Source: Terriglobus sp. TAA 43 (GTDB lineage: Bacteria > Acidobacteriota > Terriglobia > Terriglobales > Acidobacteriaceae). From it: a stretch of DNA of 64,000 bases. How positions within the stretch are numbered: the first letter of the stretch is position 1; each line of letters opens with the position of its first letter. Below, piece after piece: positions 3,182 through 50,787 of this stretch. Both the position numbers and the translations under genes were made by a program. The notes beneath the pieces are model-generated. The model searched no databases. It saw nothing but the letters and a program-made list of their open reading frames with translations, and was not told the origin of the DNA. Location of the stretch: positions 806,001-870,000 of the forward strand of contig NZ_JUGR01000001.1 in NCBI RefSeq assembly GCF_000800015.1, read 5' to 3'.

Positions 3182-5365
3182 ATGAAGCTAAGTTCCTTCG
3201 TGGCCACGATAATTCCTGGCCACATCCACCGTTCCGTGTGCTGTGGCTCTCGACGCCCGCGGCACGCAATGGCGCTTGCTTTCTTTGTCATGGCGTCGTC
3301 TGCGCCTTCGCAGACTCGCCTGATCCTCAACTCCGGTAACACCATGACTACCCTGAGCGGCAGCGGCAGTGATGGCAAGACAACTGCGGGAGATGCCCTC
3401 ACCACGCGCATGGGAACTCCGCGCACGGTCCGTTATGATGCCGCGGGCAACCTCTTCGTTGTCGATAGCCGAAACAACATCGTCACTCGGATTACCCCCG
3501 CGGGCCAACTCGCTGTCATCGCCGGAACAGGACGTGAGGGATACGAGGGCGATGGTGGCGCAGCCACAAACGCTCTCCTCAACCGCCCCACGTCCATCGC
3601 CCTCAGACCCGATGGAACTCTCTTCATTGCAGATACCGGAAACCACTGTATTCGCAGCGTCTCACCCGACGGAACCATCACGACCGTTACGGGCAACGGG
3701 AAGCCCGGAGACTCAGGCGACGGAAGAAACGCTAAGACCGCCCAACTCCGCAATCCGAGCGGTTTAGCCCTCGATGCCGACGGCACTCTCCTCATCGCCG
3801 ACACAGGCAATCACCGTATCCGCCGCCTCGCCGCAAACGGAACCATTGTCGCTGTTGCTGGCACAGGAAAAGAAGGCAATTCGGGTGATGGAGAATCCGC
3901 GGCGAATGCCACATTTCGCAGGCCGACATCTCTCCTGGCTCTTAACGATGGCAAGATCCTGATTGCCGATACCGACGCACGCCGTATCCGCATCCTGTCA
4001 CCCGACGGCACCATCGGCCCCTACGGCAGCACAACCTTCCGCAGCCCGGAAGGCATGACACTCGACGCCTCCGGCAACATCGTCGTTGCCGATGCGCAAC
4101 TGCAACAGGTGCTTCAAACGTCGACCACCGGAAGCAACACTCTCGCCGGCAATGGCAAACAAGGCACCAGTGCAACCGGCGCACTCAACTCCCCCTCTTC
4201 CGTTGCAACAGACGCTAGCGGCGGCATTGCCATCAGCGACCGCGGCAACCATCAGGTGCAACATCTTGCACTCCCCACCATCGACTTCGGAAGCATCCCC
4301 GTCGGGCGTACCTCTGCAGCACAGACATTGCTGCTACAGAATGCCGCAGACACGCCACTGCAGATCGCATCCATCGCTCTGTCGCCTGCGTTTTCCATCA
4401 ACGCAAACGGCAACTGCGGCACGCCGCCCTTCACACTCGCAGCGAAGGCTCAGTGCTCCCTCCAGTTAGCGTTTACTCCACAAGCCAATGGAAGCGCACA
4501 AACAATCGGCCTGGTCCAATCCGCCTCTGCACCGCCGTCCATGTTGCGACTCACAGGCGTCGGAGTCTCCGGCACAAACCTCGCAACGTCGCGCATCTCG
4601 CTGGTCAGCGACGGCTCCATCAGCTATTCCGGAGCCCCCATCAAGCTCACAGCAACGGTGGCAGGTTCTTTGCTAACGCCTCCCACGGGCAATGTCATCT
4701 TCCAGGACGGCAACAACAATCTCGCCACCATACCGCTCGCAGCAGGGACTGCCGTACTCTCCACAACCGTGCTCACGGCTGGCTCTCACACACTCCAGGC
4801 CGTCTATAGCGGCGACAGCATCTACGCCACCAGTACATCGAGCTCAACCACGCAGACGGTTGTCGCAGCGCCTGATTTCTCTCTCACAACATCCGCAGCC
4901 AGCTACAGCGGCAGCGCCAACAACTCAGTGAGCATCCCCATCACGCTCTTACCGTTAAACGGCACACTGAATCACCCCACCACACTCACCATCAGCGGCC
5001 TGCCCAGCGGAGCCACAGCGACCTTTACACCATCCACGTTTACTCTGGCGGGAGACCCGGTCGCGGTATCGCTGCTGATCAAAATCCCCGCAACACTCGC
5101 GCTTCATCCTTCCAATCTCACCGGCATACTCACGGCGTTGCTTCTGCTCGGCATCTTCCCCCTGAAACGAAAGCGCCTCCCTGCCTTCCTACTAATCTGC
5201 TGCACATTCACACTGCAAGGGTGCGGCGGTTTCCGCACCACGGCCAGTACCAGCACCGCAAGCAACACACACCGCTACAACTGCACCATCACCGCCACCA
5301 CCACAGGCGTCGTGGGCGACACGCTCATCCACACCGTCCCAGTGGAACTGGATCTCACGCAATGA
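3182..5365 (+). CDS. Secreted NHL-repeat protein with Ig-like domains and C-terminal membrane anchor
   Basis: A 727-residue exported protein. After a hydrophobic N-terminal segment it has at least five NHL-type repeats (about residues 75-350; recurring LFIADTGNHxIR and GDGGxA blocks), which form a beta-propeller. Then comes a choice-of-anchor/ASPM-SPD-2-like domain (about 362-465, DFGSIPVG start), an Ig-like repeat domain (about 470-560, GNVIFQDG and AVYSGDS) and another beta-rich segment. The C-terminus has a hydrophobic helix, a KRKR cluster, a second hydrophobic helix ending in LLICCTFTLQGCGG (Cys 681) and a short tail. Function is unknown; a surface or cell-envelope role is inferred. Its stop overlaps the next start (ATGA), so the two are probably translated together. 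Confidence 0.8.
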   Translation: MKLSSFVATIIPGHIHRSVCCGSRRPRHAMALAFFVMASSAPSQTRLILNSGNTMTTLSGSGSDGKTTAGDALTTRMGTPRTVRYDAAGNLFVVDSRNNIVTRITPAGQLAVIAGTGREGYEGDGGAATNALLNRPTSIALRPDGTLFIADTGNHCIRSVSPDGTITTVTGNGKPGDSGDGRNAKTAQLRNPSGLALDADGTLLIADTGNHRIRRLAANGTIVAVAGTGKEGNSGDGESAANATFRRPTSLLALNDGKILIADTDARRIRILSPDGTIGPYGSTTFRSPEGMTLDASGNIVVADAQLQQVLQTSTTGSNTLAGNGKQGTSATGALNSPSSVATDASGGIAISDRGNHQVQHLALPTIDFGSIPVGRTSAAQTLLLQNAADTPLQIASIALSPAFSINANGNCGTPPFTLAAKAQCSLQLAFTPQANGSAQTIGLVQSASAPPSMLRLTGVGVSGTNLATSRISLVSDGSISYSGAPIKLTATVAGSLLTPPTGNVIFQDGNNNLATIPLAAGTAVLSTTVLTAGSHTLQAVYSGDSIYATSTSSSTTQTVVAAPDFSLTTSAASYSGSANNSVSIPITLLPLNGTLNHPTTLTISGLPSGATATFTPSTFTLAGDPVAVSLLIKIPATLALHPSNLTGILTALLLLGIFPLKRKRLPAFLLICCTFTLQGCGGFRTTASTSTASNTHRYNCTITATTTGVVGDTLIHTVPVELDLTQ

Positions 5366-5943
5366 AGTACGTCGTCTCATTCCTCGCTGTCGCATTGTCA
5401 TGCGCTGCGGCACAAGCACAAATGCAGGGCGACACTCTCCTGGTAGGCCTGCGCTACTCTGTCACGGCTGCGAATGCCCCACCGGGAAGTTGCGGCTGCT
5501 TTTTCCTTCAAGGAGGCGCCATAGAAGCCTCCATTCCCGTCCTGCCGCATCTCCGCGGGGTGGTGGAAGCAGGCGGCAGCACCGTCGCTCGCGTTCCCGC
5601 AAGCACCCGTGGACTCAGCGAAATCACGCTGCTCGCTGGTCCGCGTTACACCGTACCCATCCATCGCATCCGTCTAAATGCACAGGTACTCTTCGGAGCA
5701 GTACGTGGCTTCGATAGCGACTTCATCATCGCCACCAACACGCACACCGACACCTCAACAAATCTCGCAATGGCATTCGGTGGAAGCATCGACCTCCCAC
5801 TAAACCACGCAGTCCTTCTGCGCCCCGTCCAGGTCGACTACCTGCAGACCAACCTGCCCAACGGCGTCGACGATCGCCAGCGCAACATCCGTTTCGGCGC
5901 AGGCATAATCTTCCGCGTCCACCTACCCGATAACCGTCGCTAA
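5362..5943 (+). CDS. Small outer-membrane beta-barrel-type protein
   Basis: 193 residues beginning with a clear signal peptide (MKYVVSFLAVALSCAAAQAQ) and followed by alternating polar/hydrophobic strands such as LVGLRYSV, GVVEAGGSTVAR, ITLLAGPRYTV, RLNAQVLFGAVRGF, NLAMAFGGSIDLPL and IRFGAGIIFRVHL. This is the pattern of an eight-stranded OmpA/OmpW-like barrel, with the barrel end close to the C-terminus. The ATG at 5362 is chosen because it gives the signal peptide and overlaps the upstream stop by 4 bp. Substrate or partner is unknown; the coupling suggests it works with the NHL protein. Two Cys near residues 40-44 (GSCGCFF) are unusual for a barrel. Confidence 0.65.
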   Translation: MKYVVSFLAVALSCAAAQAQMQGDTLLVGLRYSVTAANAPPGSCGCFFLQGGAIEASIPVLPHLRGVVEAGGSTVARVPASTRGLSEITLLAGPRYTVPIHRIRLNAQVLFGAVRGFDSDFIIATNTHTDTSTNLAMAFGGSIDLPLNHAVLLRPVQVDYLQTNLPNGVDDRQRNIRFGAGIIFRVHLPDNRR

Positions 5944-47635: not shown

Positions 47636-48646
47636 TTACGCAGCCGGTGATGGCGCCGGAGCAATTGCTCGAACAATTTCCGGCGGAAGGCCGAAGCGAA
47701 CGTTCTCCGGCATGACCTCGACTTCATCGACCGAGCCATAACCGATGCCCTGCAGATAAGCGACCACTTCCTGTACGAGAACTTCAGGCGCGGATGCACC
47801 CGCGGTGATAGCCACCTTCTCAACACCCTCCAGCCACTGAGGCTGAATATCCTGGGCCTTGTCGATCAGGTAGCTCTTGGTGCCGAGGTTCTCAGAAACT
47901 TCGACCAAGCGGTTGGAGTTGGAGCTGTTCTTCGAACCGACAACCAGCACCAGGTCTGCACCGTGCGCCACATTCTTTACCGCTGTCTGGCGGTTTTCCG
48001 TGGCGTAGCAGATGTCCTGCGCGTGCGGTCCGACGATGTTCGGGAACTTCTTCTTCAGCGCCTCAATCATGTACTTCGCTTCGTCGAGTGAAAGCGTCGT
48101 CTGTGTGAGGTACGCGAGCTTGTCTGGATCGGGAACCACGAGGGCTTCCACTTCTTCAACCGTGGAGACGACCTGGGTAACCTCAGGTGCTTCGCCTGCG
48201 GTGCCCTCAACCTCTTCGTGATCGCGGTGACCGACGAGAACGAGGGAGTAGCCCTGCTTGGCAAACTTGATGGCTTCGACGTGAACCTTTGTCACGAGCG
48301 GGCAGGTGGCGTCGATGACCTTGAGGCCGCGTTCCTTCGCACGTTCGCGAACGGCCGGCGATACGCCGTGCGCGGAGTAGATCACGCGCTTGCCTTCCGG
48401 CACCTCGTCCAGTTCGTTGACGAAGATTGCGCCCTTCTGGCGCAGGTCGTCCACGACGTAACGGTTGTGAACGATTTCCTTACGCACGTAGATCGGCGCA
48501 CCGAAGGTGTCCAGCGCGATCTTCACGATGTCCACTGCACGCACCACACCCGCGCAGAAACCACGGGGCTTCAGCAGGAGAACGCGCTTCTGTTGTGCGC
48601 TTTCGTTTTCGGTGGATACAGGCGGGTCGAGGGTCAGAGTGCTCAC
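47636..48646 (-). CDS. ispH: 4-Hydroxy-3-methylbut-2-enyl diphosphate reductase (IspH/LytB)
   Basis: 336 residues. Last step of the MEP pathway: HMBPP to IPP and DMAPP. The three cysteines holding the [4Fe-4S] cluster are C31 (PRGFCAGV), C115 (DATCPLV) and C213 (DICYATENR). The start is GTG at 48646 (no alternative Met in the first 30 residues). No Shine-Dalgarno sequence is seen; a -10-like TATACT ends 6 bp before the GTG, so translation may be leaderless. As first gene of the hopanoid operon it supplies C5 units for squalene, whose own genes are not in the window. Confidence 0.95.
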   Translation of the reverse strand: MSTLTLDPPVSTENESAQQKRVLLLKPRGFCAGVVRAVDIVKIALDTFGAPIYVRKEIVHNRYVVDDLRQKGAIFVNELDEVPEGKRVIYSAHGVSPAVRERAKERGLKVIDATCPLVTKVHVEAIKFAKQGYSLVLVGHRDHEEVEGTAGEAPEVTQVVSTVEEVEALVVPDPDKLAYLTQTTLSLDEAKYMIEALKKKFPNIVGPHAQDICYATENRQTAVKNVAHGADLVLVVGSKNSSNSNRLVEVSENLGTKSYLIDKAQDIQPQWLEGVEKVAITAGASAPEVLVQEVVAYLQGIGYGSVDEVEVMPENVRFGLPPEIVRAIAPAPSPAA

Positions 48647-48652
48647 GGTTAA

Positions 48653-48658
48653 AGTATA
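48653..48658 (-). promoter_or_regulatory. Candidate -10 (TATACT) just before ispH
   Basis: On the minus strand TATACT lies 6 bases before the ispH GTG (48646), so transcription would begin at or next to the start codon. No good -35 lies 16-18 bp upstream. It would give a leaderless mRNA for the hopanoid operon; otherwise the promoter must lie in the 48659-48788 gap. Confidence 0.3.
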
Positions 48659-48788
48659 CCGCGAAGTAAACCCCTGCCGCAGTGATTTGAACCTGTTGTG
48701 GTGCAGTCTGACGAAACTACGACAAAGCGCCGTGGCGCACTATGGCGCACAAGACCGGTCGCTAAGCGCTACTGTACCAGTGGAGACC

Positions 48789-48944
48789 CTAAAGTTTGCC
48801 TGTGCAGCCGTTATGGGGGCAGTGGCACGCGATGGCCGTGGGTGCCGCTTTGGCCGCATCTTCACAGTATTGCGAGCAGTATTTGCCCTCTGTCACGGTG
48901 CAGCTACAGGCGATATGTGCGCACTTCTTCGGTTCGTGAGACAT
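48789..48944 (-). CDS. Small metallothionein-like cysteine-rich protein
   Basis: 51 residues from an ATG at 48944 with AGGAG nine bases upstream (48951-48955 region) to a TAG at 48789. It has eight Cys (8, 13, 15, 23, 27, 40, 42, 47) and His 3, 10, 41 and 44. The pattern C-x4-C-x-C ... KYCSQYC ... CHCPHNGC resembles bacterial metallothioneins (SmtA/BmtA type: C-x-C, then YCS-x2-C, then a closing Cys pair with His). It probably binds zinc or copper in the cytosol. No transport or regulator gene is next to it; it follows recN by 70 bp on the same strand and may be cotranscribed. Confidence 0.8.
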   Translation of the reverse strand: MSHEPKKCAHIACSCTVTEGKYCSQYCEDAAKAAPTAIACHCPHNGCTGKL

Positions 48945-49014
48945 CGGTGGATCTCCTCTTGCTGTGAAGTCCGTGATGACTTGGATTGGTTCCCACGATT
49001 TCCGGTTGCCGCGG

Positions 49015-50787
49015 TCAGCGACTGGCTTTAAGCATTTGTTCCGCGTGCTTCAGACTGGTCTCCGTGACGGTGGCTCCGGAGATCATGCGGGCGATTTCGC
49101 CGGTGCGCTCTTCGTCCTTCATCTGGCGGATCTGGGTGCGGGTGCGGCCTTCCTTTTCCGACTTCTCAACGAGGAAGTGCTGATCGGCGAAGGCGGCGAT
49201 CTGGGGCAGGTGGGTGACGCAGAGCACCTGCTGATGCTTCGACAGGGCCTTCAGCTTGGCACCGACCGCTTCTGCGGCGCGGCCGCCGATACCGATGTCG
49301 ATTTCGTCGAAGACGAGGGTACGCGGCAGCGGGATGCGACGCTTGGTGCGGTCTGCCCCACCCTCTTCCACGGAAACCTTCAGGGCCAGCATGACGCGGC
49401 TCATTTCGCCGCCGGAAGCAATCTCTTCGAGGGGCTTGAGAGGTTCACCGGCGTTGGTCGCGATCAGGCATTCGACGTGATCCCAGCCCATGGCTGTCCA
49501 GAAGCTCTGTTCTTTTTGCGGAGCGACTTCGACCCGGAAGCGTACCTGCATCGCAAGGTCGTTGATCTGCTGCTCGGCGAGTTTTTCCAGTTTGCGCGCA
49601 GAGGCAGTGCGTGTCTCGGTAAGGTCCTGCGCGACGCAGGTGTAGATGTGTTCGCATTCGGCTAGCGTCTTCTTCGCCTGCTCGATGAGCGCTTCGCGAT
49701 TCTCTACTTCGTTCAGCTTTGCGGAGACATCTTCGCCATACGCGATGACATCGCCGAGCGTCTTGCCGTACTTGCGCTTCAGGCGATCGAGCGCGGCGAG
49801 ACGGTCTTCAATCTCCGCGAGACGCTCCGGTGACGCATTGATGTTTTCCGCATAATGACGGGCGGTTTCGCTGATGTCGGCAACAGCGGCACGGGCGTTG
49901 GCAATCTGTGTTGCGGCCTCAGTGAATGATGGGTCGTAACGCGCGAGTTCTTCGAGATGCTTCTGTGCAGCCGCGAGCGAGGATTCAGCGCTGGCTTCGT
50001 TCTCGTAGAGAACTTCCTGCGCGTTCATCGCTGCGGTGTAGAGCTTCTCCGCGTTGGCCAAGACACGCTTCTCTGCTTCGAGCTGATCGTCTTCTTCCGC
50101 GGATGCGATGTTGGCGTCTGCGATTTCGCTGCGCTGAAAGATCCACAGATCGACCATGCGGAGGCGTTCCTGCTCATCGGCAGAGAGACGGTCGAGTTCT
50201 TCACGAGCATCGCGCCATAGGGCGTATGCGGTGCGGATGTTTTCGCCTGCCTGCGCAACGTCAAGTCCCTTATGCGATTTGAGTCGTTCACGCAGATCGA
50301 TGACGAGATCTTTGCCCAGGCCTGCATTGGTATTCACACCAGCAAAGCGATCGAGCAGGCCGCGTTGCTGTGCCTGATCGAATGCGCCCATGGTTTCGGC
50401 CTGCGAGTGCACCAGTGCGAGTTCCGGTGCGAGCTGACGGAGAACTGCAACCGTGGCGGGCTGATTGTTGAGGAAGACGCGGCCCTTGCCGGATGCATTC
50501 ACTTCGCGACGAAGAAGAATCTCAGTGCTTTCGACGTCGATACCGTTGGCTTCGAGGATGGCCTCGGCCCCGGCGGTCGCTTCAAAGACACAGGAGACGA
50601 CAGCCTTTTCGGCGCCGTGACGCACCACATCGCTGGCTGCGCGACCGCCCATAAGAAGGGCGAGAGCGTCGACGAGGATGGATTTACCCGCGCCGGTTTC
50701 GCCGGTGAGCAGGTTCAGGCCGCTGCCGAAGGTGGCGACAGCGTGGTCGATGACAGCATAGTTTTCCGCTCGCAGCTCAAGGAGCAT
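49015..50787 (-). CDS. recN: DNA repair protein RecN
   Basis: 590 residues, SMC-like ATPase that acts in double-strand break repair. Walker A GETGAGKS (29-36), the signature/Walker B region SGGEMSRVMLALK and LVFDEIDIGIGGRAAEAVG, and a central coiled coil (about 150-370). Start ATG at 50787 gives MLLELRAENYAVIDH, the typical N-terminus. Divergent from the tol operon over 243 bp. The metallothionein-like gene follows on the same strand. Confidence 0.95.
   Translation of the reverse strand: MLLELRAENYAVIDHAVATFGSGLNLLTGETGAGKSILVDALALLMGGRAASDVVRHGAEKAVVSCVFEATAGAEAILEANGIDVESTEILLRREVNASGKGRVFLNNQPATVAVLRQLAPELALVHSQAETMGAFDQAQQRGLLDRFAGVNTNAGLGKDLVIDLRERLKSHKGLDVAQAGENIRTAYALWRDAREELDRLSADEQERLRMVDLWIFQRSEIADANIASAEEDDQLEAEKRVLANAEKLYTAAMNAQEVLYENEASAESSLAAAQKHLEELARYDPSFTEAATQIANARAAVADISETARHYAENINASPERLAEIEDRLAALDRLKRKYGKTLGDVIAYGEDVSAKLNEVENREALIEQAKKTLAECEHIYTCVAQDLTETRTASARKLEKLAEQQINDLAMQVRFRVEVAPQKEQSFWTAMGWDHVECLIATNAGEPLKPLEEIASGGEMSRVMLALKVSVEEGGADRTKRRIPLPRTLVFDEIDIGIGGRAAEAVGAKLKALSKHQQVLCVTHLPQIAAFADQHFLVEKSEKEGRTRTQIRQMKDEERTGEIARMISGATVTETSLKHAEQMLKASR

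Follow-up and report, generated by a model that had tools for sequence, protein, structure and literature searches.

To our knowledge, research on bacterial metallothioneins has centred almost entirely on those of cyanobacteria, pseudomonads and mycobacteria. The cyanobacterial example is SmtA of Synechococcus elongatus (1jjd; PF02069, BmtA family), whose full ligand set is Cys9His2 and in which C9, C14, C32 and C36 make up the zinc-finger site A. Zinc binding by SmtA-type bacterial metallothioneins is very tight (PMC10612145). The metallothionein of Pseudomonas fluorescens holds a Zn3Cys9His cluster and is encoded in an operon without a metal regulator; it is expressed in stationary phase and benefits survival during starvation (PMC7387436). 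The locus described here adds to these systems a metallothionein-like group that extends across the Acidobacteriota, a phylum that ranks among the most abundant in soil. No paper linking Terriglobus with metallothioneins was found in the literature searched, and the titles and abstracts of the literature on Acidobacteria and metallothioneins describe no such proteins.

The stretch of DNA analysed here, hereafter the window, comprises 64,000 nucleotides of the genome of Terriglobus sp. TAA 43. At 48789..48944 (stop codon included) its minus strand carries an open frame, from ATG to stop, that encodes MSHEPKKCAHIACSCTVTEGKYCSQYCEDAAKAAPTAIACHCPHNGCTGKL, a sequence of 51 residues with eight Cys and four His and with the motifs C-x4-C-x-C, KYCSQYC and CHCPHNGC. 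The earlier note, which gave no strand, had listed the same composition and motifs together with a good ribosome-binding site and a proper start and stop, and all of this is borne out: a Shine–Dalgarno-like AGAGGAG (48953..48959, minus strand) lies 8 nt upstream of the ATG and is kept in two same-genus relatives. The frame had also been considered too small for usual gene calling, which is not the case, as common gene finders do call proteins of 51 residues and elsewhere a metallothionein gene with a 168-base CDS has been annotated.

The number of cysteines is by itself weak evidence for a gene, since four of the 217 ORFs of 40–60 aa in the window contain at least eight (the other three start with TTG). 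The argument for a gene comes instead from homologues with conserved Cys and from the substitution pattern. Same-genus orthologues differ mainly at third codon positions, with a dN/dS of about 0.1–0.25, and on these values the close relatives of the window gene are under purifying selection. Judged by both lines of evidence, the ORF is a real, conserved protein-coding gene. A chance Cys-rich ORF is ruled out on the same grounds, and the plus-strand reading of 48789–48944, although partly open, is without support.

A lack of homologues outside this strain, named in the earlier note as evidence that would count against it, is clearly not what was found: 143 distinct homologues were collected, all apparently from Acidobacteriota. 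The source genome has a single copy of the gene. Homologues occur in 62 of 150 genomes sampled from the family, some with two or three copies, and in 45 of 297 genomes sampled from the phylum, where they are spread over many families; carriers include Terriglobus roseus DSM 18391, Granulicella rosea, Acidipila rosea, Occallatibacter savannae and members of the Bryobacterales, Pyrinomonadaceae and Blastocatellia. Outside the phylum, the search consisted of a single collection scan that used two peptide patterns, which were derived from a seven-row alignment, the 27-row alignment being too variable, and within this coverage the group looks confined to Acidobacteriota so far. Searches of plasmids and a scan of genome contigs with the single window protein gave no match. 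An apparent case of spread to the Verrucomicrobia, locus L140 (titled Verrucomicrobia bacterium Tous-C9LFEB), was rejected as the genome index places it in the phylum of the window; this locus carries the metallothionein-like gene between recN and ispH, and its title looks wrong.

Six cysteines are invariant among the 143 homologues and two more are present in 142 of them. His44 is found in 140 (98%) and His10 in 126 (88%), while H3 and H41 of the window protein are not conserved. The position following the loop is Tyr in 126 and Phe in 14 homologues and is followed by Cys-Ser or Cys-Gly, so that the family consensus reads K-C-A-H-x2-C-x-C ... Y-C-S-x2-C-E-D-A ... C-x-C-x-H-x2-C.

The PF02069 search that the earlier note had proposed gave a divided answer. 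The window protein itself remains below the cut-off (7.6 bits, E 6, against 33 bits) and no protein of the 150 family genomes exceeds it; the window protein has no match in NCBIfam or PHROGs, nor in a single-sequence search of the PDB. Its homologues, by contrast, match PF02069 weakly but repeatedly: 24 of 27 at E ≤ 10, and 56 of 84 at E ≤ 1 with a best E of 1.2e-5, the next family being matched by four of the 84. Profiles of 27 or 84 homologues aligned by hhalign with SmtA and four plasmid metallothioneins gave 95.7% and 96.3%, respectively, over 45 columns. The real score of 40.7 lies well above the maximum of 21.6 from 200 column shuffles of the metallothionein profile, or 23.6 when the Cys columns were kept fixed. 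The homologue profile also aligns with SmtA 1jjd end to end and in register, albeit with E values of 2.1 and 0.62 that are not significant alone, and P. fluorescens metallothionein 6gv7 is among the weak profile matches. Taken together, the weak PF02069 matches, the profile–profile alignment above shuffles and the end-to-end alignment with 1jjd support a distant common ancestry of the window protein with the SmtA/BmtA metallothioneins, beyond Cys spacing, and it is in this sense of distant homology that the description as metallothionein-like holds.

The alignment places eight ligands in register, C8, C13, C15, C23, C27, C42, H44 and C47 corresponding to SmtA C9, C14, C16, C32, C36, C47, H49 and C52. 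The equivalents of the site A cysteines (C8, C13, C23 and C27) are each kept in at least 142 of the 143 homologues, and the YCS-x2-C motif followed by a helix is common to both proteins. The window protein differs from SmtA in having His10 in place of Cys11, no counterparts of His40 and Cys54, an extra C40 that creates the C-x-C-x-H-x2-C motif, and a shorter loop before YCS; eight Cys and two conserved His thus stand against the Cys9His2 of SmtA. The likeness to the Pseudomonas metallothioneins (PflQ2 MT, 6grv/6gv7; PmtA) consists of the weak match to 6gv7, of a similar number of ligands, about ten, and of an operon that contains no metal-responsive regulator (PMC7387436), but PflQ2 MT has Cys9His and a disordered His-rich tail, whereas in the Acidobacteriota proteins the eight Cys are joined by two conserved His and a tail is mostly lacking. 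Because of the score below the Pfam cut-off and the altered ligand set, we class the proteins as a divergent sister group of SmtA/BmtA rather than as textbook members, probably working like a metallothionein. PF02069 and NCBIfam miss this whole branch, which had previously not been modelled.

The earlier note had placed the gene between recN and a hopanoid operon and had called this placement unexpected. The upstream neighbour is indeed recN (49015..50787, minus strand; TIGR00634, 482 bits), separated from the metallothionein-like gene by a 70-base gap. The direct downstream neighbour, however, is ispH (47636..48646, minus strand; NF002189 and TIGR00216 ispH_lytB above cut-off; 142-base gap), and shc and then hpnH, confirmed by NCBIfam, follow only beyond it. 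As to the placement being unexpected, this is partly right: recN and ispH flank the gene in an old, conserved arrangement of one clade. In a tree of the 143 proteins, the copies linked to recN group together in a single supported clade of 34 rows (99/91, rough values given the few columns of the alignment), of which 33 are recN-linked. All 27 loci measured show the same order with all three genes codirectional, the gap after recN being mostly 50–140 bases. As recN also adjoins ispH in seven genomes that lack the metallothionein-like gene, we favour a single old acquisition between two genes that were already neighbours, followed by later losses. Two further genomes that lack it, both of the same genus, do not have recN next to ispH.

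Regulatory features of this interval were sought on the minus strand. In front of ispH, about 85 bases (48647..48735, minus strand), ending in TTTACTTCGCGGTATACTTTA, are near-identical in three same-genus genomes, unlike the bases directly after the metallothionein stop; this stretch, which has no match in Rfam, is probably the own promoter or leader of ispH, to judge from its conservation. Neither a promoter nor a terminator could be recognised in the interval from recN to ispH. A regulatory motif shared by the upstream regions of the copies was sought by 7-mer counts, which gave nothing beyond modest GC-rich words. For recN-linked copies, the stretch upstream of the metallothionein-like gene overlaps the end of recN.

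Copies elsewhere adjoin varied genes, including DUF3300/DUF2950, BON-domain, YflT-like, LysM-transglycosylase and cytochrome genes. No recurrent metal transporter was found among the neighbours examined, for which a metal-resistance operon context is ruled out. Neither does the arrangement resemble the cyanobacterial smt operon: tblastn with cyanobacterial SmtB across 148 loci (1.3 Mb) found no SmtB-like gene near the Acidobacteriota genes, and the positive control was found. As these copies lie beside unrelated genes, genomic context gives no confirmation of function. Some of the neighbours (BON-domain, YflT-like, DUF3300 and DUF2950 genes) are of stress type, and PMC11237414 ties the P. aeruginosa PmtA to oxidative stress, so one may ask whether the protein's main role lies in thiol redox buffering or oxidative stress, with zinc being released from the cysteines when they are oxidised. 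We consider this very unlikely, for the neighbours differ widely among clades and the P. fluorescens metallothionein was not required under oxidative stress (PMC7387436).

A structure model built from 27 sequences reached a pLDDT of 77, and a confident one from 84 sequences a pLDDT of 90.9 and a pTM of 0.71; the latter contains no metal and shows a single helix, residues 25–33, that follows the YCS motif. A Foldseek search with the 84-sequence model returned no metallothionein, while the weaker, 27-sequence model found the P. fluorescens metallothionein 6grv at a non-significant E of 4.3. With no significant match, the fold comparison is neutral. The top PDB match of the 84-sequence model, also non-significant (E 2.0), was the gyrase inhibitor YacG. 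This match speaks for an alternative in which the protein stores no metal and its zinc serves a purely structural purpose, in a treble-clef or GATA-like finger for binding a protein or nucleic acid; it might, for instance, be a small regulator that works together with RecN or gyrase. A GATA-like finger does exist inside SmtA-type proteins (PMC10612145), Blindauer 2002, as cited in the same article, names SmtA-like zinc fingers, and the long-term linkage to recN would fit such a role. This alternative is nonetheless unlikely: the family conserves four to six more ligands than one finger needs, the other copies are mostly not located near recN, and a Pfam search of 84 homologues gave no match to YacG, one to DUF2116 (a probable treble clef) and four to the WRKY19 zinc finger.

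We prefer, as the likely reading, a small cytosolic zinc–thiolate buffer or store of metallothionein type, belonging to a divergent, Acidobacteriota-wide sister group of SmtA/BmtA. In such a protein, by analogy with SmtA and the P. fluorescens metallothionein, C8, C13, C23 and C27 would bind one structural Zn tightly, forming a GATA-like finger that includes the short helix of residues 25–33, while C15, C40, C42, C47, H10 and H44, together with bridging thiolates, could hold about two more. The predicted total, roughly Zn3Cys8His2, resembles the Zn3Cys9His cluster of P. fluorescens, which also has ten ligands. The role of the protein would be to buffer or store Zn(II), and Cd(II) could be taken up as well. 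Transcription of the gene may occur with recN or be basal or constitutive, rather than start from a dedicated metal-induced promoter, and given this proposed lack of such a promoter the benefit would be zinc storage, or protection in times of stress or starvation, rather than acute metal resistance. Zinc stoichiometry, the identity of the metal and the regulation are what we infer from this analysis; most likely the protein buffers or stores roughly three zinc ions and its expression is either constitutive or coupled to that of recN.

Copper would be the alternative metal, as in mycobacterial MymT, a copper metallothionein that is likewise small and Cys-rich and with which the present proteins would share metal sequestration. 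A search for the HMA domain (PF00403), which 13 of 14 control genomes have, found none in the source genome, and this together with the cysteine content can be taken to favour a copper-binding protein. We regard copper as extremely improbable, since the relatives with solved structures bind Zn or Cd, the conserved His and the SmtA-type finger site, both distinguishing these proteins from MymT, favour Zn, and no resemblance to MymT appeared in any search. The source genome also has one P1B-type (CPC) ATPase and one KdpB-like ATPase, and with no HMA domain its metal efflux looks lean.

In this new group the ligand set is changed but strictly conserved and a metal-sensor neighbour is absent. A wider proposal, which we think quite unlikely, concerns this large multi-paralogue Acidobacteriota subfamily with its rearranged Cys8His2 and no metal-sensor control: a functional link of zinc buffering to DNA-break repair, or to the supply of metal-sensitive Fe-S enzymes, would be the reason why one clade has for so long retained the gene between recN and ispH. 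The family is suited to testing what effect the exchange of ligands (Cys11 replaced by His, loss of Cys54, gain of C40) has on zinc stoichiometry, and to asking about roles of metallothioneins beyond metal detoxification.

Several individual loci deserve mention. Six loci of one clade have DUF3300 and DUF2950 genes after the metallothionein-like gene, in conserved order, and their metallothionein-like protein is C-terminally extended, to about 65 aa. At locus L052, two divergent metallothionein-like genes adjoin on opposite strands (5003–5218 and 5365–5637), which suggests local paralogues. Finally, T. roseus DSM 18391 (NC_018014.1) carries the region with recN, the metallothionein-like gene and ispH twice, near 2.79 Mb (L131) and near 2.33 Mb (L132); the two stretches are 99.99% identical over at least 10 kb and represent a recent large duplication.
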